In this document: piece by piece, positions 886 to 57,060 of the stretch | Position numbering within the stretch: the stretch's first letter is position 1 | Layout of the letters: each line of letters opens with the position of its first letter | Assembly: GCA_030633305.1 (NCBI GenBank) | Contig: DAOVTB010000007.1 | Coordinates: 1 to 57,060 of the forward strand | Reading direction: 5' to 3' | Length of the DNA stretch: 57,060 nt | Source: Candidatus Muiribacteriota bacterium | Lineage (GTDB): Bacteria > Muiribacteriota > DAOVTB01 | Translations under genes and position numbers: made by a program | The notes under the pieces: model-generated | Told to the model about the DNA's origin: nothing | Database searches by the model: none | Seen by the model: only the letters and a program-made list of their open reading frames with translations

Positions 886-1059
886 CAATATTTCCTTTAT
901 TTATACTGTTCTTTTTTTATCTATCTTTCCTTCATATTCTTCATGGTGATTTTTTTCTTTTCTTCATGCCCTTCATGCTCTTCATGGTGATTTTTTTCTT
1001 TTCTTTTCTTTTTTAATCTAGTGTCTTTCATGGTTTCATTTTTATGTTATCATAGTCAC

Positions 1060-1923
1060 ATGACGGAAGAGAAAATAATAATTCAAGAACCACTTGTCGA
1101 AGTCAAAGTACCTAAAAGCCTGAAGGAAAAAATCAGATTTTACCTTATTGACTGCAACACTACAATCGGAAAAGGTATTGATATTTTCATTATCTTATTG
1201 AACCTTCTGGTTTGTGTGACTTTTGTTATTGAAACATATTCCATATCTAAAGAAACAGCAAATATTTTGTGGAATATCGAAGTTATCGCTGTCATTTTCT
1301 TTATAATCGAATATATTGCACGACTTTACGGCGAAAAAAATCGCCTTTCTTTTGTTTTCAGCATATATGGTTTCATTGATATTATGGCTATTCTTCCCAC
1401 AATTGTCCTAATTCTGCCAGGCGCGGGAAACTTAGCTTTTATTAAAGCTCTTAGAATATTCAAAGTTTTCAGGATATTCAGATTTTTGAGATTTCTATCA
1501 AATCCAAACTTTTTCTTTGGAAAAATTAATATGCAGCTCCTCAGAGTTGTAAGGCTGATCGTCACAATATTGATTATATTTTTCATAGCATCAGGCTTCT
1601 TCTATCATGTGGAAAATTCGATCAATACAAATGTAGAAACTTTCGGAGATGCCTTTTATTTCTGTGTAGTAACACTTACAACGGTTGGTTTCGGAGATAT
1701 AATACCTCAAAGCGAAAGCGGAAGATGGGTGACAATCCTTCTTATCCTTTCAGGCATCATCCTTATCCCATGGCAGGCAAGTCAAATAGTGAAAGAATGG
1801 GCAAAAATATCAGATAAAGTAAATGTTATCTGTAAAAACTGTGGTCTTAAGTATCACGATAAAGACGCTTCGCATTGCAAATCCTGCGGAAACATAATTT
1901 ATCAAGAATACGACGGAGAATAA
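1060..1923 (+). CDS. Voltage-gated K+ channel-like ion transporter with C-terminal zinc ribbon
   Basis: Selectivity filter TTVGFGD, Arg-rich S4 (ALRIFKVFRIFRFLRFL), C-terminal CxxC...CxxC (CKNCGLKYHDKDASHCKSCG). Start set at MTEEKIII because the upstream ORF extension overlaps an intergenic repeat. Confidence 0.85.
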   Translation: MTEEKIIIQEPLVEVKVPKSLKEKIRFYLIDCNTTIGKGIDIFIILLNLLVCVTFVIETYSISKETANILWNIEVIAVIFFIIEYIARLYGEKNRLSFVFSIYGFIDIMAILPTIVLILPGAGNLAFIKALRIFKVFRIFRFLRFLSNPNFFFGKINMQLLRVVRLIVTILIIFFIASGFFYHVENSINTNVETFGDAFYFCVVTLTTVGFGDIIPQSESGRWVTILLILSGIILIPWQASQIVKEWAKISDKVNVICKNCGLKYHDKDASHCKSCGNIIYQEYDGE

Positions 1924-1927
1924 CCTC

Positions 1928-2049
1928 CAACGTTCTGAATGAGCGAATCTTGAATTTTTATGCATCATCCCAAATCTGCGGAGTATAATAATACACCTCA
2001 ATTTAGGCTAATACAGAAAAATCCAACCTTCATCTCATTCAGAACGTTG
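1928..2049 (-). repeat. ~120-bp structured repeat, copy A (R3 family)
   Basis: Perfect 16-bp outer arms CAACGTTCTGAATGAG (1928-1943) / CTCATTCAGAACGTTG (2034-2049); core GAGGTGTAT-TATT-ATACTCCGCA on minus strand; boxes ATGAAGGTTGGA and TTCAAGATTCG shared with copies B-D. Confidence 0.85.
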
Positions 2050-2191
2050 TAGGGGTTAATTAAATAAAAGAAAAAATATAGTAAAATACTTAAGATTCAT
2101 TTTCTCAGACTGTATAATAATTCAAAAATAAGAAAATTTTAAAACAGATTAAAAAGTTTTTTAACATCTGAGATCATTATTTCTATATAAA

Positions 2192-9814: not shown

Positions 9815-10747
9815 ATGAAAAATCTATTTGTCATTATATTCATTATGATAATATGGTATACATTAAATCAATTTTCAGAAGGAAAAGAATTCAACATGGA
9901 ATATAATAAGCTTTCATCAAAAGAAGAATACATTATAATCAATAAAGGGACCGAGAAACCTTTTTCAGGAAAATTTCTAAAACATGATAAAAAAGGAACC
10001 TATATCTGTAAAAGATGCAATACTCCTTTGTATAATTCTGCCGACAAGTTTGAATCACATTGCGGATGGCCAAGCTTCGATGATGAAATTCCCGGAGCGG
10101 TAAAACGACAGAAAGATGCCGACGGACAACGTATTGAAATTCTTTGCAAAAATTGTAACGGACATCTTGGCCATGTTTTTTCTGGAGAAAATTTGACCTC
10201 TAAAAATACACGCCACTGTGTTAATTCTCTTTCAATGAAATTTATACCAGCAATTCCTGAAAAACTTAATGAAACTGTTTACTTTGCAGGAGGTTGTTTC
10301 TGGGGCACAGAATATCATTTTCAAAAATTAAAAGGAGTTACATCAACAAACGTTGGATACACTGGCGGAAAAACAGAAACTCCAACTTATGAATCCGTAT
10401 GTTCCGGGTTGACCGAACACGCAGAAGTAGTTGAAGTTATCTTTGATCCCGAAAAAGTTGATTACGAAAAACTCGTTAAACTTTTCTTTGAAATACATGA
10501 TTTTACCCAGATAGACCGACAGGGACCAGATATCGGAACACAATATAGATCTGAGATATTTTATACTACAGAAAATCAGAAAACACTTTCAAATAAAATC
10601 ATAACCCAACTGATACAAAAAGGATACGATGTAGCAACACAAGTAACCAAAGCCGAAAAATACTGGGAAGGCGAACGTTATCACCAGGATTATTACGACA
10701 ATAAAGGCACAACCCCTTATTGCCATATCTATAAAAAGCTATTCTAG
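9815..10747 (+). CDS. msrBA: Bifunctional methionine sulfoxide reductase MsrB-MsrA, exported or membrane-anchored
   Basis: MsrB domain (CKRCNTPLY...HCGWPSFDDEI...RHCVNSLSMKF) followed by MsrA domain (YFAGGCFWGTEYHF, YTGGKTETPTYE); hydrophobic N-terminus. Confidence 0.93.
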   Translation: MKNLFVIIFIMIIWYTLNQFSEGKEFNMEYNKLSSKEEYIIINKGTEKPFSGKFLKHDKKGTYICKRCNTPLYNSADKFESHCGWPSFDDEIPGAVKRQKDADGQRIEILCKNCNGHLGHVFSGENLTSKNTRHCVNSLSMKFIPAIPEKLNETVYFAGGCFWGTEYHFQKLKGVTSTNVGYTGGKTETPTYESVCSGLTEHAEVVEVIFDPEKVDYEKLVKLFFEIHDFTQIDRQGPDIGTQYRSEIFYTTENQKTLSNKIITQLIQKGYDVATQVTKAEKYWEGERYHQDYYDNKGTTPYCHIYKKLF

Positions 10748-10795
10748 ACCGCATATAGCATGATCGAATTTTGAAATTTTCTGGTATGAGTATAA

Positions 10796-14095: not shown

Positions 14096-14170
14096 CATGA
14101 GCAAAACTTGAAAATATGATATAATGTAACCTGATTATACAAAAATAAACAAATAAGCGGAGGTACAAAG

Positions 14171-14929: not shown

Positions 14930-14997
14930 AAGATTCTCGCGCAAAGAACGCCGAGGACGCAGGGAAAAATAAGATAGTAAAATAATTCAATATAAAA

Positions 14998-15165
14998 GGG
15001 GTCAGAAGTGACTTTTGTGAACTTGATGTTCAAGTTCATGAAAGTTACCCTGACCCCAGCGCCAGATAAGTTTAATTCTCCCAAATAAATAAAGAGGATC
15101 AAGCAAATCACACAAAACAGGAAAACACCCTGACCCCTGCGCTAGATAAATTGTTTCCACCAAAT
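14998..15165 (-). repeat. R1 hairpin copy plus a second R1 leader in tandem
   Basis: ggggtcagaagtgacttttgtgaacttgatgttcaagttcatgaaagttaccctgacccc (palindromic), followed by cagcgccagataagttt, then ccctgacccctgcgctagataaattgtttccaccaaa (leader again). Confidence 0.8.
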
Positions 15166-15694: not shown

Positions 15695-15980
15695 ATCCAG
15701 CAAACACACTACACTGTCATTATGCGGCTTGACCGCATAATCTATTTCAATCGTTAATAAAGAAATAAGATTCTGTAATCTATTCTTTTGAAATTGCATC
15801 TCACAGCACACCAAAGGATTCAAAACACTTGATTTTTTGTTTTGATCTTTCTTTATCTTGTTAATCTTGTCCAATCTTCTTTTTTTCTTCGTGTCCTTCA
15901 TGGTAAATTCTTGTTTTTTTCATCTGTAATCCCTGCATTTTCAGTTGTTTTAGAAATATTTATTTTTTTTATTTTTACTG

Positions 15981-16009
15981 TTGACACTTTTATGATCTTC
16001 TGGCATAAT
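15981..16009 (+). promoter_or_regulatory. Sigma70-type promoter
   Basis: TTGACA - 17 nt - CATAAT, preceded by T-rich tract; near-identical promoter before the paralogue at 19019. Confidence 0.8.
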
Positions 16010-16063
16010 TCAAGGCTCTGAAAAAGCACAGAAATTAAAAATCAATTCGAGGAGAAAGAGAAG

Positions 16064-16435
16064 ATGAAAAAATTATCAGCACTTATTATTTTATTTGTTT
16101 TTATGTTTGGTGTTATGGGTTCAGTAGATCTTCAAGCGAAGGGACAGAAAAAATCATTATGGAATAGAATGAAATGCAAAGTTAAAAAAACTGGTGCAGC
16201 TGTAAATAACTCTGTTAAAGATTCTTATGTTTCTACAAAAAAATCAGTTACTGGAAAAAAAGATAAGACTTGGGTAAAAGGACATTGCACAGTTAGAAAC
16301 GGAAATAAACATTATACTAAAGGACATTGGAGAAAAGTAAAACAGACTGCTTCTCAGGGACCATCACAGGGAAATAGTCAGGGACCAGTTCAAGGACCAT
16401 CTCAGGGACCAGGACAAGGACCTTCACAAAGATAA
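16064..16435 (+). CDS. Secreted basic protein with C-terminal Gln-Gly-Pro repeats (paralogue 1)
   Basis: Signal peptide, WVKGHCTVRNGNKHYTKGHWRK, then (S/V/G)QGP repeats; SD GAGGAG upstream. Confidence 0.8.
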   Translation: MKKLSALIILFVFMFGVMGSVDLQAKGQKKSLWNRMKCKVKKTGAAVNNSVKDSYVSTKKSVTGKKDKTWVKGHCTVRNGNKHYTKGHWRKVKQTASQGPSQGNSQGPVQGPSQGPGQGPSQR

Positions 16436-16460
16436 ACTAACTTAATAATTTAATACCAAA

Positions 16461-16490
16461 AAGCCCTCCTATTAAAAGGAGGGCTTTTTT
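16461..16490 (+). terminator. Rho-independent terminator
   Basis: AAGCCCTCCT-ATTAAA-AGGAGGGCTTTTTT. Confidence 0.9.
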
Positions 16491-18623: not shown

Positions 18624-18932
18624 TAGAATTCGCTTACCTTTGCTTGGATTTAAATGATGATTACATTAAACTATAACACCCATTATACTGCTTATAACCA
18701 CAATATAATGCATAATTACAATTTTATTTATTTTCATCATTTCTTCTATGATTCTAATCTTTTATCACTAGCATGTCAAACCATGTCTGTACTTTCCGTG
18801 TGTACATAAGTCGATAAATCTATAATCAATTTAAGCAGTTTATCAGACAAGATGAACAACAGTTCATGTAAATAACACTAGGAGTCTGTCTTTTAAACAG
18901 TTTTGAAAATAATATTTTTTTTATTTTTTACT

Positions 18933-18962
18933 GTTGACACTTTTATATTCTTCTGGCATAAT
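18933..18962 (+). promoter_or_regulatory. Sigma70-type promoter of paralogue 2
   Basis: TTGACA-N18-CATAAT; same flanks as the promoter at 15981 (actgttgacacttttat..tctggcataattcaaggctct). Confidence 0.78.
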
Positions 18963-19018
18963 TCAAGGCTCTAAAAGAGCACGAAATCAAAATTCAAGTT
19001 TTTAAGGAGATTAAGAAG

Positions 19019-19414
19019 ATGAAAAAAATATTAGCACTTATTATTTTATTTGTATTTATGTTTGGTGTTGTAGGTTCAATCGATCTTCTCGCTAAAGGAC
19101 ACAAAAAATCAATCTGGAAAAAAATGGCATGCAAGGTTAAAAAGACTGGTGCAGCTGTAAATAACACAGTTAAAGATTCATATGTTTCTGCAAAGAAAAC
19201 TGTGACTGGTAAAAAAGATAAGACTTGGGTAAAAGGTCATTGCACAGTTAAAAATGGTAATAAACATTACACGAAAGGACATTGGAGAAAAGTTAAACAG
19301 ACTGCTTCTCAGGGACCATCTCAAGGAAATAGCCAGGGACCAGTTCAAGGACCTGCACAGGGAAATAACCAGGGGCCATCTCAGGGACCAGGACAAGGAT
19401 CTTCACAAAGATAA
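19019..19414 (+). CDS. Secreted basic protein with C-terminal Gln-Gly-Pro repeats (paralogue 2)
   Basis: Highly similar to 16064-16435, longer repeat tail (QGPVQGPAQGNNQGPSQGPGQGSSQR). Confidence 0.8.
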   Translation: MKKILALIILFVFMFGVVGSIDLLAKGHKKSIWKKMACKVKKTGAAVNNTVKDSYVSAKKTVTGKKDKTWVKGHCTVKNGNKHYTKGHWRKVKQTASQGPSQGNSQGPVQGPAQGNNQGPSQGPGQGSSQR

Positions 19415-19437
19415 ATTAAAACTAAAATTTAATAACA

Positions 19438-19468
19438 AAAGCCTTCCTTTTAACAGGAGGGCTTTTTT
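19438..19468 (+). terminator. Rho-independent terminator
   Basis: AAAGCCTTCCTTTTAACAGGAGGGCTTTTTT. Confidence 0.85.
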
Positions 19469-19762
19469 ATATATGATTAAATTCCCGCAGGATATTTTTA
19501 AAAAATCGCTCCCAGCAAGGAAAGGATACCAAGGATTCCTAGTCTTGACCCAACCATTTTTTTTATGATATAATTCGGAAAGTTTTGTGAAGGCCGCCTA
19601 ACTTCTGAAGTGCTGCCCGACGCATTGTTGGCGGGTGTAAACTCGGATAGGTCAACCAGCCTTCGCGGAGTTCCCTGGCGTCTTCTGAAATCATCAGAAT
19701 TACTGTTAACGCAAGTAACGCTGTTAGATTGGTTGTGGAAAATCATAAAAAAGGAGTGTTTT

Positions 19763-20610: not shown

Positions 20611-20710
20611 ACGAAGTGAAGATTGGATTATACAAAGCGATCCAATCCGAGGCGTATTTTTATACGTTGAGGACTGGATCGTTGCATTAAAATTCAAGAT
20701 TCGCTCAAGC
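20611..20710 (+). repeat. R3 structured repeat, copy C
   Basis: gaagtgaagattggatta...gatccaatccGAGGCGTATttttATACGTTGAGgactggatc...attaaaattcaagattcgctca. Confidence 0.78.
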
Positions 20711-20758: not shown

Positions 20759-20885
20759 CGTCTGAGAATTGATTGAGATGAAGGTTGGAACTTTCAAGCC
20801 AATTTATGCTGAGGTGTAGTACTCTACTCCGCAAGCATAAATTGGTGCAGAAAGTTTCAAGATTCGCTCAAGCTATTTTCAGACG
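20759..20885 (+). repeat. R3 structured repeat, copy D, abutting the amidohydrolase stop codon
   Basis: Outer arms cgtctgagaattgattgag (20759-20777)/ctcaagctattttcagacg (20867-20885); 12-bp stem CCAATTTATGCT/AGCATAAATTGG; core GAGGTGTAG-TACT-CTACTCCGCA. Confidence 0.85.
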
Positions 20886-22112
20886 TTAGACGTCTAGTCC
20901 TTTTCTCATGGCCTTCTTGTCCACCAATTTTCCGTGGCTCACAACATGAAGAGGCTCTTTATGATACCAGAGTGCTTCATAAACTGTTTTAGCATCAAGA
21001 ACAACAAGGTTAGCTGGAGCACCTTTTTCTACTCTAAATTTAGGAAGGTTAATACAATCAGCTGCATCTATGGTGATCATATCGTAAATTTCTTCCATTT
21101 CAGGGAATGTTGTCATCCATAAAAGATGTACATTCAAAAAACCAACTTCCAGCATATTGTTCTGTCCAAAAGGATAAAATGCATCTGCTATATCATCCTG
21201 TCCAAGACAAACAAGATTACCTTCTGCTCTGAGTTCTTTAACTTTAGCATGAAGTGGTCCAGTATGTGGATCACTTACAACACCCATTCCAGCTTTTTTC
21301 AAAAGAGCGGATATTCTTTTAAAATAAGGAGTGGAATATTGACTCATTGCACGAGCATGATGAGCAAGGTCTCTTCCTGTCCTTTTATCTTTGATCGATC
21401 TAACAGCCATTTTTTCAAGTGTGTGAAGTTGATCACAACCTGCATCATCAACCAGCATTGAAACATCTGCATCAAAATCCTTAGCTATATCAAACATTTC
21501 ATCGATATGAGTCTGTTCATCTTCTACTGTATATTCTATCCATGGAATACCACCAACAACATCACAACCTAATTCCATAGCTTTTCTGATGAGTTTAACA
21601 GTTCCTGGTTCACGAACAACACCGTCTTGAGGAAAAGCAACGATCTGAAGATCCACAATTCCTTCAAATTCTTTTTTCATCTTCAAAAGAGCCTTCACAC
21701 CAATGAGCTTGGCCTTTGAGTCAACATCAGCAAATGCCCTGATATGAGTATTTCCATGAAGTGCTGCTAATTTCAAAGCTTTTCTGACATTTATCATAAT
21801 CGATTTTTCGTTATAATTAGCTTTGACTCTGGAAGCGGCTTCAATCGCAGTCATCGCTCCACCCATATCTCCACTGTGATATTCTAAAAGAGCTTTTGAA
21901 TCAAGCTGTTCAGTGGTATATACTTTACAAAGATGCAAATGAGTATTTACAAATGATTCAGTTACAAGGTTACCTTTTGCATCAATTACTTTTTTCGCTT
22001 TTTCCTTGATAGTTGCAGCAATCTTTTTGATTACACCTTTTTCTACTGCAATGTCTACTTTTCCTTTTCTTTTCCTCAGATGTGCATTCCTTATTATAAG
22101 ATCGTATGCCAT
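20886..22112 (-). CDS. Amidohydrolase, cytosine deaminase-like
   Basis: DLIIRNAHL..KKVIDAKGNLVTESFVNTHLHLCK, CDVVGGIPW, GQDDIADAFYPFGQNNMLEV. Confidence 0.8.
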   Translation of the reverse strand: MAYDLIIRNAHLRKRKGKVDIAVEKGVIKKIAATIKEKAKKVIDAKGNLVTESFVNTHLHLCKVYTTEQLDSKALLEYHSGDMGGAMTAIEAASRVKANYNEKSIMINVRKALKLAALHGNTHIRAFADVDSKAKLIGVKALLKMKKEFEGIVDLQIVAFPQDGVVREPGTVKLIRKAMELGCDVVGGIPWIEYTVEDEQTHIDEMFDIAKDFDADVSMLVDDAGCDQLHTLEKMAVRSIKDKRTGRDLAHHARAMSQYSTPYFKRISALLKKAGMGVVSDPHTGPLHAKVKELRAEGNLVCLGQDDIADAFYPFGQNNMLEVGFLNVHLLWMTTFPEMEEIYDMITIDAADCINLPKFRVEKGAPANLVVLDAKTVYEALWYHKEPLHVVSHGKLVDKKAMRKGLDV

Positions 22113-22149
22113 TTACTAAATCCTCCTACCCTTTTTGTTTTTTTAATTC

Positions 22150-22177
22150 GGACAGGCACAGGGGCCTGTCCCTACAT
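22150..22177. repeat. Mini-palindrome GGACAGGCACAGGGGCCTGTCC-CTACA (R2)
   Basis: Identical or near-identical at 22787, 30369 and 55164. Confidence 0.85.
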
Positions 22178-22195
22178 TATATTTTTAGGTTTATT

Positions 22196-22760: not shown

Positions 22761-22786
22761 CTTTTCCTCCATCATATCCTGGTCTT

Positions 22787-22814
22787 GGACAGGCACAGGG
22801 GCCTGTCCCTACAT
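22787..22814. repeat. Mini-palindrome R2
   Basis: ggacaggcacaggggcctgtccctacat. Confidence 0.85.
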
Positions 22815-22842
22815 TATTAATTTTTATTTTACTCTTGTTCCA

Positions 22843-22910
22843 GAGGGGTCAAAGCAACTGTGATTTTTTTTGAGACTTCAAAGAAAATTAAAGTTCCATC
22901 TGACCCCATC
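22843..22910 (+). repeat. R1 hairpin, second subtype (TTTTTTGAGACTTCAAAGAAAA loop region)
   Basis: gaggggtcaaagcaactgtgattttttttgagacttcaaagaaaattaaagttccatctgacccc. Confidence 0.8.
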
Positions 22911-23063
22911 TTATTTACTATTTTGTCCTTTTTCTTACTCTTTTTTTTAATCCTGTCTAATCTTCTTATTTTTTCTCTGCGCCCTCAGCGATCTCTGCGC
23001 GAGAATTTTCTTTCTTTATTTTTTCTTCATGCCCTTCATGCTCTTCATGGTAAAATCTTCTCT

Positions 23064-30131: not shown

Positions 30132-30368
30132 TTTATATACCTCCAGCAATTGGATTTTGTTTATTCCATTTCCTATATGAAATATTTGTTCCAAAACAGA
30201 CAAACCATAGATAGATCCTTTATTTAAAGTGGTTTTCATATGATTCAATGTTTTTTTTGAGAAACAGCAGCAACAGCAACTGAAGCAAATTATATACACT
30301 TTGTCAAAATAGCGTTCACTATTTTCCAATATAAGCCAAAATAAAGAAAATTTTAAACATTTGATATT

Positions 30369-30396
30369 GGACAGGCACAGGGGCCTGTCCCTACAA
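30369..30396. repeat. Mini-palindrome R2
   Basis: ggacaggcacaggggcctgtccctacaa. Confidence 0.85.
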
Positions 30397-30446
30397 CGTT
30401 TATTATATATTCAGATATTTTTTCTTCATGTTCTTCATGTTCTTCT

Positions 30447-36289: not shown

Positions 36290-36530
36290 AAAACCCTCTG
36301 TTTTTTAAAGATTGTTAAGTATATCAATATAGTTTCCAATTTTCAACGAACAGTCATAGCACAACTGTGTTTAAATTATACATTTTACTACGAAGATAAA
36401 AAGTGAGTTGCATAAAAATTCAAAATTCGCTCATGCAACACGCAGGGTTAAAAATAATTATAATATTTCTATAACATATTTGATTTTTTGTGATAGAATA
36501 TTATTGATTATGTTGACAACAAGGAAAGAA

Positions 36531-45642: not shown

Positions 45643-45673
45643 AGTTAAATAAATCCTTCATCGTGTTTCCAAA

Positions 45674-45735
45674 GGGGTCAAAGCAACTTTCATGAACTCG
45701 AATTTCGAGTTAACAAAAGTTCCATGTGACCCCAT
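45674..45735 (+). repeat. R1 hairpin
   Basis: ggggtcaaagcaactttcatgaactcgaatttcgagttaacaaaagttccatgtgacccc. Confidence 0.85.
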
Positions 45736-45861
45736 CTATATTCACTATTTTGTCATCTTCCTTCGTGGCATTTTTTTATTTAATCCTTTTTATCTTGTTA
45801 ATCCTGTCTAATCTTCTTTTATTTTCTTTGTGCCTTAGTGCCTTTGTGTGAACTATTCTTT

Positions 45862-47170: not shown

Positions 47171-47260
47171 TGGAAACAACTAATCTGCCACCAAGGTCAA
47201 AGCAACTGTGAATTTTTTTGAGACTTCAAAGAAAATTAAAGTTCCATGTGACCCCATCTT
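47171..47260 (+). repeat. R1 hairpin with leader
   Basis: tggaaacaactaatctgccaccaaggtcaaagcaactgtgaatttttttgagacttcaaagaaaattaaagttccatgtgacccc. Confidence 0.8.
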
Positions 47261-47293
47261 TTTTTCTCTCTGTGTCCTCTGTGGTGATTCTTT

Positions 47294-55129: not shown

Positions 55130-55163
55130 CTTTTTTTAAACTTTATTATTTATTATTTATATC

Positions 55164-55190
55164 GGATAGGCACAGGGGCCTGTCCCTACA
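55164..55190. repeat. Mini-palindrome R2
   Basis: ggataggcacaggggcctgtccctaca. Confidence 0.8.
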
Positions 55191-55219
55191 TTGTTTTATA
55201 TTTCTTTTATTAACTATTT

Positions 55220-55343
55220 CCTGCGTCCTGAATGAGATGAAGGTTGGATTATTCAGTATTCGGGTAGACCGAGGCGCACTACTCGTGCGTTGAGGTCTGC
55301 ACGGATGCTTAATAATTCAAAATTCGCTCATTCAGGACGCAGG
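55220..55343 (+). repeat. R3 structured repeat, copy B, abutting the priA stop codon
   Basis: Perfect 17-bp arms CCTGCGTCCTGAATGAG (55220-55236)/CTCATTCAGGACGCAGG (55327-55343); core GAGGCGCAC-TACTC-GTGCGTTGAG (55271-55294). Confidence 0.88.
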
Positions 55344-55346
55344 ATA

Positions 55347-57060
55347 TTATAGCACACTGGATGGGTCTATATCTATTATAATCTTAACACGGGAATGGTA
55401 CTTTGTCCCCCGCGCGACCTTATCAATTAAGCTTACAGCACTTTTTAATGAAATATCATTATGGGCTTTCAGAAGCATCTGCCATCTGTATCTACCCCTT
55501 ATTTTAGCAATTGGTGCCGGAATCGGACCAAGAATAATTACATCCACATTTTCTGCATCTTTTTTAAATTGATTTCCAAATTTTTCTAGAAAATTTACAA
55601 GATTGTCTTCATTATCCGAACTGAATACAATATTGGCTATTATGCTGAATGGTGGATAGAAAAGCTTTTCCCTATGTTTTATTTCAGATTCATAAAAATT
55701 CTGATAACTGTTTTTGACAAATGCCTGTAATGTATAATGTCCTGGGTTATAGGTCTGGACAATGACACAACCTGGTTTTTCACCTCTTCCAGCGCGCCCT
55801 CCGACCTGAGTAATCAATCCAAATGATCTTTCACATGAATGATAATCTGGAAGTGATATCAATGAATCATACGCAACTATACCAACGAGCGTTATATCTG
55901 GAATGTGTAGTCCTCTCGATACCATCTGAGTTCCAACAATAATATCAACTTCTTTATTCTTGATCATTGAATATGCTTTTTCGTGATGTTTCAAGGAATT
56001 TATACTGTCAGAATCTACTCGTAATATTCTTGCTGCTGGAAGAAACTTCCTGATTTGAAATTCAAGCTGTTCTGTGCCTAATCCAAAGTACTTTATCGCT
56101 CTACTTGAACAGGCCGGACATTTTTCCGGAACATTAACCTTGTAATCGCAATAATGACACTTTAATGTTTTATTTGATTGGTAATATTTAAGTGCAAGTT
56201 CACATTCCGGACATCGCATCTCATGACCACAGATTCGGCAGAACACGAAAGTTGAAAATGCACGTCTATTATGAAATATAATTGTCTGTTCGCCAGCTTC
56301 CAGGTTTTCTCGCATCCGCTTTAAAAGAAGTCGTGAAAAAATACTTCTGTTTCCACGTTTCAATTCCTGCCTCATATCAACAATAAAATTTTCAGGAAAA
56401 GCTCTTTTGGATACTCTATTATGAATCTTTGAGCTCTGGAGAATAGAATTTTCAGATGCATGAAAAGTTTCTATTGAAGGAGTAGCACTTCCCATAAGCA
56501 CCATACAATTTCCAGATAGCTCTGCTCGAAAATTGGCTACTTTTTTGGTCTCATAACGGGGATCTTCGCCTTGTTTATAAGAACTTTCTCCTTCTTCATC
56601 AACAATTATAAGACCCAGATTGGAAAATGGTGAAAAAACTGCACTTCTTGCTCCAATTGCTACTTTTGCAAGACCACTTTTAATCCTCAGCCATTCGCTG
56701 ATTCGTTCTTTTTTTGTCAATCTTGAATGATAGACAGCAACCAGATCACCATATCTTTCTTTCAAAATTCTTACTATCTGAGGAGTTAGTGAAATTTCAG
56801 GGACAAGATAAATCACATCTCTATTATTTTTCAACATACTGTCTATAACACGCAAATATATTTCTGTCTTTCCACTTCCAGTCACGCCATAAAGTAAAAA
56901 TGATTGAACACCTTTGCAGTCACCATCATCCTGAAGCATTGAAAAAATATTTTCAAGTGCTGAATTCTGTTCTTCTGTAAGTATAAGTTCCTCATCTCTT
57001 TTAATCTCTATTTTTTTATATGGAGTCTTAAACTTTTTAATCATTATTTCTTCTAAAACA
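55347..57060 (-). CDS. priA: Primosomal protein N' (PriA helicase), 5' end beyond window
   Basis: LLYGVTGSGKTEIYLRVI, IIVDEEGESSYKQ, CRICGHEMRCPECELALKYY zinc cluster, QVGGRAGRGEKPG; frame stays open through the window end. Confidence 0.93.
   Translation of the reverse strand, partial: VLEEIMIKKFKTPYKKIEIKRDEELILTEEQNSALENIFSMLQDDGDCKGVQSFLLYGVTGSGKTEIYLRVIDSMLKNNRDVIYLVPEISLTPQIVRILKERYGDLVAVYHSRLTKKERISEWLRIKSGLAKVAIGARSAVFSPFSNLGLIIVDEEGESSYKQGEDPRYETKKVANFRAELSGNCMVLMGSATPSIETFHASENSILQSSKIHNRVSKRAFPENFIVDMRQELKRGNRSIFSRLLLKRMRENLEAGEQTIIFHNRRAFSTFVFCRICGHEMRCPECELALKYYQSNKTLKCHYCDYKVNVPEKCPACSSRAIKYFGLGTEQLEFQIRKFLPAARILRVDSDSINSLKHHEKAYSMIKNKEVDIIVGTQMVSRGLHIPDITLVGIVAYDSLISLPDYHSCERSFGLITQVGGRAGRGEKPGCVIVQTYNPGHYTLQAFVKNSYQNFYESEIKHREKLFYPPFSIIANIVFSSDNEDNLVNFLEKFGNQFKKDAENVDVIILGPIPAPIAKIRGRYRWQMLLKAHNDISLKSAVSLIDKVARGTKYHSRVKIIIDIDPSSVL

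Follow-up and report, generated by a model that had tools for sequence, protein, structure and literature searches.

The DNA analysed here, referred to as the window, is a stretch of 57,060 nt of contig DAOVTB010000007.1 from Candidatus Muiribacteriota bacterium (GCA_030633305.1; genome label G000), an assembly in 350 contigs that is about 90% complete. Three full copies of a palindromic element (A, C and D) were found in the window, along with a degraded copy and a half relic (Table 1). The 3′ end of copy A lies 5 nt beyond the stop codon of a plus-strand ion channel gene, copy C directly abuts the stop of a minus-strand amidohydrolase gene, and copy D is located 2 nt from the stop of the minus-strand gene for PriA. 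In all three full copies the opposite strand folded less well (z -6.9 to -9.3 against shuffled sequences). A preliminary description had listed four full copies; this was correct for 1928-2049 (minus strand), 20759-20885 (plus) and 55220-55343 (plus), in which the boxes, arms and cores quoted at that time are all present, but not for 20611-20710, which covers only positions 17-112 of the 127 model positions, has outer arms that form no clean pair and carries a 5′ box with three mismatches. Degenerate 3′ boxes could also be seen on the minus strand at 10748-10780 and 14096-14115, just past the stops of plus-strand genes ending at 10747 and 14095; judged by sequence, these are possibly relics of the element, although by themselves they are not significant.

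Table 1. Copies of the element, their conserved parts and adjoining genes in the 57,060-nt window
Feature	Position	Strand	Evidence
Host gene of copy A, ion channel (Ion_trans), stop 1921-1923	1021..1923	+	profile match
Full element, copy A	1928..2049	- (better-folding strand)	covariance model R1 122.8 bits, E 1e-25; fold -61.4 kcal/mol, z -11.0
3′ box of copy A, TTCAAGATTCGCTC, pairs with 5′ box	1941..1954	-	exact match
Core hairpin of copy A, TGAGGTGTATTATTATACTCCGCA	1977..2000	-	sequence, folding
5′ box of copy A, GAGATGAAGGTTGGA (bulged A, 2x2 GG/GA loop, conserved G.U)	2022..2036	-	exact match; columns near-invariant in 103 copies
A-rich, C-poor tract beyond copy A, gene-sense strand	2050..2082	+	sequence; genome-wide composition
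Degraded partial copy, outer arms unpaired	20613..20706 (listed earlier as 20611-20710)	+	R1 45.7 bits, model 17-112
Full element, copy C	20759..20885	+	R1 107.4 bits; z -9.7
Host gene of copy C, amidohydrolase / cytosine deaminase-like	20886..22112	-	profile match
Half relic, 3′ arm and 3′ box only	36409..36446	+	sequence match
Full element, copy D	about 55218..55344	+	R1 124 bits; z -16.3
Host gene of copy D, PriA	55347..57044	-	residues 7-563 of 565 matched, profile to 787/788

Throughout G000 the element is a unit of about 125 nt (about 121-126 nt) with at least about 143 matches, i.e. some 140 copies or more, and resembles a dispersed palindrome of about 100-130 bp of the ERIC or MITE kind. 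A DNA search of the same genome gave 42 matches, and the covariance-model search that the preliminary description had proposed, carried out with a model built from ten copies, gave 145 matches among only 150 candidates scored, a few of them partial and at least one a duplicate on the reverse strand. The family is thus far larger than the four copies originally noticed. All genome-wide statistics were obtained with a set of 103 distinct full-length copies with flanks. Reciprocal best pairs of copies reached up to 98.4% identity at unrelated places and genes, indicating that at least some copies have dispersed recently; part of the divergence between copies may therefore reflect the subfamily history of mobile copies and not selection at each locus. 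At one orthologous locus in two Uhrbacteria genomes the element was present in one genome and missing in the other, with flanks that were recognisable but not cleanly joined. A search for a clean target-site duplication around the elements gave none.

The element folds into one long bulged hairpin, whose bulges, 2x2 internal loop and two G.U wobbles are nearly invariant in the 103 copies. Standard pairs occupied 94.6% of the pair cells of the 103-copy alignment, compared with 81.6% after shuffling and at most 43% when pairing partners were slid, where the alignment was fitted to the model and so favours structure, and the cells count sequences rather than events. Changes on both sides were seen in 40 of the 51 pairs, and the covariation score was 0.415 as against 0.176 for shuffled columns and at most 0.089 with slid partners, under a null that does not include phylogeny. 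The same hairpin was obtained with MAFFT and RNAalifold from ten copies, with 25 compensated pairs, and arms folded better with their own partners (-10.8 kcal/mol) than with swapped ones (-6.2 kcal/mol; sd of means 0.19). The covariation originally claimed from four copies thus holds on the genome-wide set. The wobbles beside the boxes were retained as U.G in 100 and as G.U in 98 of the 103 copies, and the element strand folded better than the opposite (mRNA) strand in 103/103 copies with both RNA and DNA parameters; the same preference for one strand was observed in 20/20 and 12/12 copies in other genomes. On the complementary strand each wobble becomes an A.C mismatch, so that the conserved features can be assigned to one strand. 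Covariation, near-invariant wobbles and bulges and the one-strand preference all bear out the initial view that a folded single strand, of RNA or of ssDNA, is under constraint. The antisense position at gene stops and the recent dispersal of some copies had been overlooked.

Position relative to genes was investigated in the same 103 copies. In 90 of them the 3′ end of the element is no more than about 20 nt away from the stop of an opposite-strand ORF of at least 80 codons. The mirrored arrangement, used as a control, occurred in five, and 6% of points drawn at random from the parts of these loci outside ORFs fell at such stops. ORFs were called simply as longest frames, which might be wrong in single cases but does not affect the overall contrast. 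Most commonly the stop codon is found at the first base of the element, and in 103/103 copies it is the antisense strand of the host gene that folds better. One copy in G000 adjoins tRNA-Glu without a gap, a divergent hairpin abuts tRNA-Leu at locus L130 as read from the sequence, and a few copies sit after a T-run resembling an intrinsic terminator instead. The examined host genes are intact: profiles of, among others, IspD, ClpC, phosphofructokinase (PFK), RNase G, TldD, ROK kinase and PriA matched close to the C-terminus, and these core genes are neither truncated nor cassettes. A reading of the elements as gene cassettes was rejected for this reason. In the gene-sense flank, the 10-20 nt beyond the element contain 70% A and 4% C against a background of 40% and 13%; the A-tract is absent from other carrier genomes, but the poverty in C just past the hairpin is present there. 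The A-rich tract following the hairpin in gene sense speaks against an intrinsic terminator, as does the scarcity of T-runs relative to other genes (T5 within 60 nt in 11% vs 26%). With regard to the RYYYAAC / GTTRRRY boxes of integron attC sites, GTTAA follows the element in 27/101 copies compared with 5% of other genes, and no fixed box was present on the gene side.

Searches with RNA models within the same phylum yielded only one credible match, G003, a genome of another family with some 20 full-length hairpin copies and about 36 matches when fragments are included. A match at locus L039 was rejected as an unrelated perfect palindrome. The hairpins of G003 have boxes that differ from those of G000 and arms AGGCTGTTCAAAAA/TTTTTCAACAGCCT; their core stem, GAGGCGTAC..GTACGYTGAG, is common to some G000 copies. 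A search with the core pattern gave 11 places in named genomes, i.e. in Saccharibacteria, three Uhrbacteria records, Paceibacterota, Zambryskibacteria, a deltaproteobacterium (three places), Nitrospirae and one further host, all of which fold as hairpins of about 120-126 nt. The core pattern was not found in viral contigs or in a plasmid search, the exact box pattern was not found in the genome and viral contigs searched, and even with three mismatches allowed the core pattern gave no match in G000, owing to the shorter loop of its elements. The G000 family is nevertheless likely, though not proven, to be kin to the wider group of hairpins, as suggested by a core stem and a geometry common to both and by a single covariance-model match (E 4.9e-5).

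Carrier genomes are of two sorts, with copies either locked to gene ends or freely dispersed. Antisense placement at stop codons is the rule in G047 (15/19, control 0), G048 (3/4, control 0) and the group G040-42/46 (7/7, control 0). It is weak in G003 (8/17, control 4), where copies are also found next to tRNA-Arg and tRNA-Ala, at distances of 0 to 4 nt, and it is absent in G043 (1/13, control 1), G044 (4/11, control 3) and G045 (15/59, control 10); in these last, two Uhrbacteria and one deltaproteobacterium, the hairpins are dispersed with no bias towards gene ends. The Uhrbacteria genome G045 is the richest in copies, with 83 core matches, and its consensus ends are TA...TA; a TA duplication could not be demonstrated in G000. 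At three loci of G045 (L199 2529-2615, L210 17248-17379 and L212 7465-7605) a GC-rich palindrome (CCCCGCC...GGCGGGG) or a GGTATGAAGTAAGC palindrome was observed inside the stem, as if one palindrome had been inserted into another.

Known families and enzymes were compared with the element. None of 4227 Rfam families reached its gathering score in the window, a check already suggested in the preliminary description, and at a loose threshold the sole match was a generic long hairpin of a plant miRNA family. No description of the family was found in the open-access literature searched for its sequence motifs and for palindromes linked to stop codons. Six Y1 transposases are encoded in G000, and their loci contain no copy of the family except for the divergent hairpin at tRNA-Leu in L130; the Y1 profile gave no match in G045 or G040. 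Copying driven by a reverse transcriptase, as in a retroposon, was rejected because RVT_1 has no match in G000 or G045, nor was one obtained in G003 and G047. Tyrosine recombinases in G000 (assembly about 90% complete) were XerC and XerD only, both far below the cut-off for integron integrases. Among Y1, RVT_1 and tyrosine recombinases only the last was found in all carriers, which is uninformative, since Xer is nearly universal.

The family, with its strand-specific hairpin, its intact host genes and its near-identical copies at unrelated genes, suggests a mobile palindrome of the REP/ERIC type, dispersed and non-autonomous, that is recognised as a folded single strand by some enzyme, an explanation to which we give about an even chance. 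We infer both the single-strand substrate and its enzyme. According to this model, one strand of about 125 nt would fold into the long hairpin with its fixed bulges, the 2x2 purine loop, tandem G.A beside the GAGGCGYAC core and G.U (G.T) wobbles. The folded strand would most likely be ssDNA arising in replication or transcription, and a nuclease or recombinase would read the conserved bulge, loops and wobbles; stems would be free to drift while paired and the unpaired boxes would stay fixed. Placement at gene ends in G000 might come about through targeting or through selection. The mobile palindrome is weakened as an explanation by the Y1 loci, which carry no elements, by G045, which has no Y1 match, and by the fact that neither a clean target duplication nor a clean empty-site comparison was obtained. 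Its closest likeness among enterobacterial repeats is ERIC (IRU, RU-1), a 127-bp imperfect palindrome with a long stem-loop, dispersed intergenic copies and co-location with genes (PMC2229807); the comparison was made with its published description, which mentions no stop-codon lock in one antisense orientation. IS630-type MITEs such as RUP are also similar, being palindromes of about 107-125 nt, and the TA ends in G045 recall them, but the window's genome lacks a demonstrated TA duplication. To our knowledge, mobile palindromes occur near gene ends, but none has been described as fixed there in a single antisense orientation. More tentatively, the elements could represent a class of folded single-strand elements that spans phyla and has not been described before, with a recombinase or nuclease of its own, deposited at the 3′ ends of genes (stops and tRNA ends) in a fixed antisense orientation that leaves the gene unharmed.

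The hairpin might alternatively function as a structured RNA, transcribed antisense from a start downstream of the gene or carried by the mRNA as a 3′-UTR hairpin, and control stability, processing or antisense transcription of the gene. Its position at stop codons and tRNA ends, the covariation and the conserved wobbles are in agreement with such a role, and ERIC provides a precedent, since its co-transcription with genes alters mRNA stability in an orientation-dependent manner (PMC2229807). A plain 3′-UTR role is, however, opposed by the mRNA carrying the worse-folding strand in every copy; upstream flanks of the element strand contain TATAAT-like sequences in 66% of cases compared with 68% for the other strand, giving no promoter signal above background, and no Rfam family corresponds to the element. 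We consider a structured RNA rather unlikely. Covariation could also have arisen by mutation, if template switching (quasi-palindrome correction) used one arm as the template for the other in the absence of selection. Compared with changes that break a pair, compensated double changes are frequent even among near-identical copies, and in a few copies the arms extend into gene-specific sequence, which looked striking by eye; as a general rule this extension was rejected, being not above the swapped control. Template switching should, moreover, erase fixed mismatches and wobbles, and these persist in 95-100% of copies, which makes it an improbable source of the pattern.

Movement by a RAYT (REP-associated tyrosine transposase, Y1 family) seems similarly improbable. 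REPs share with the element a strand-specific hairpin, a high copy number and a location within 20 bp of ORF 3′ ends, where the stop codon is often part of a GTAG REP (PMC3733652), and Y1 transposases are available in G000. REPs are, however, 20-40 nt long, carry a GTAG/CGTC tag and are accompanied by a RAYT gene, whereas the present hairpin is of about 125 nt with several loops, no such tag was conserved in its flanks, and an association with RAYT was rejected at the available loci. A match to a known REP family had been named at the outset as a result that would refute the initial view; REP-like families have the gene-end location in common with the element, but not the anatomy. The geometry is also that of integron attC sites. 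These are hairpins of similar length at a stop codon, with variable stems and conserved unpaired features, whose recombinogenic bottom strand is antisense to the gene, and the excess of GTTAA after the element points in the same direction. With no integron integrase, no cassettes and core genes as hosts, an attC-like site is largely refuted and is by far the least probable of these explanations.

We know of no mechanism by which DNA is positioned at stop codons and tRNA ends irrespective of the gene. If the interpretation is correct, gene ends are recognised by a mobile or regulatory hairpin, or retain it, with near single-base precision and in one orientation, in the phylum of the window and in several CPR lineages, and the hairpin would offer a testable route to a new nuclease or recombinase or to a class of antisense-strand structures.

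Other repeats were also observed in the window. A second dispersed palindrome, GGACAGGCACAGGGGCCTGTCCCTACA, is located at 22132-22183, 22769-22820, 30351-30402 and 55146-55197, and was also seen beyond the window, where it lies downstream of several elements. A third repeat family, GGGGTCAAAGCAACTTTCATG...AAAGTTCCATGTGACCCCATC, was found in both orientations at 2182-2288, 14980-15164, 22847-22919, 45673-45751 and 47195-47267. The Y1 transposase locus L133 carries a hairpin, GGGGTCAGGTCTTTAGATTTGA, that is similar to this third family and is perhaps the REP of that transposase. A unit of about 500 bp is duplicated at 15933-16488 and 18886-19479 (300 nt at 87% identity), and each of the two has a similar hairpin-like end, GGAGGGCTTTT.
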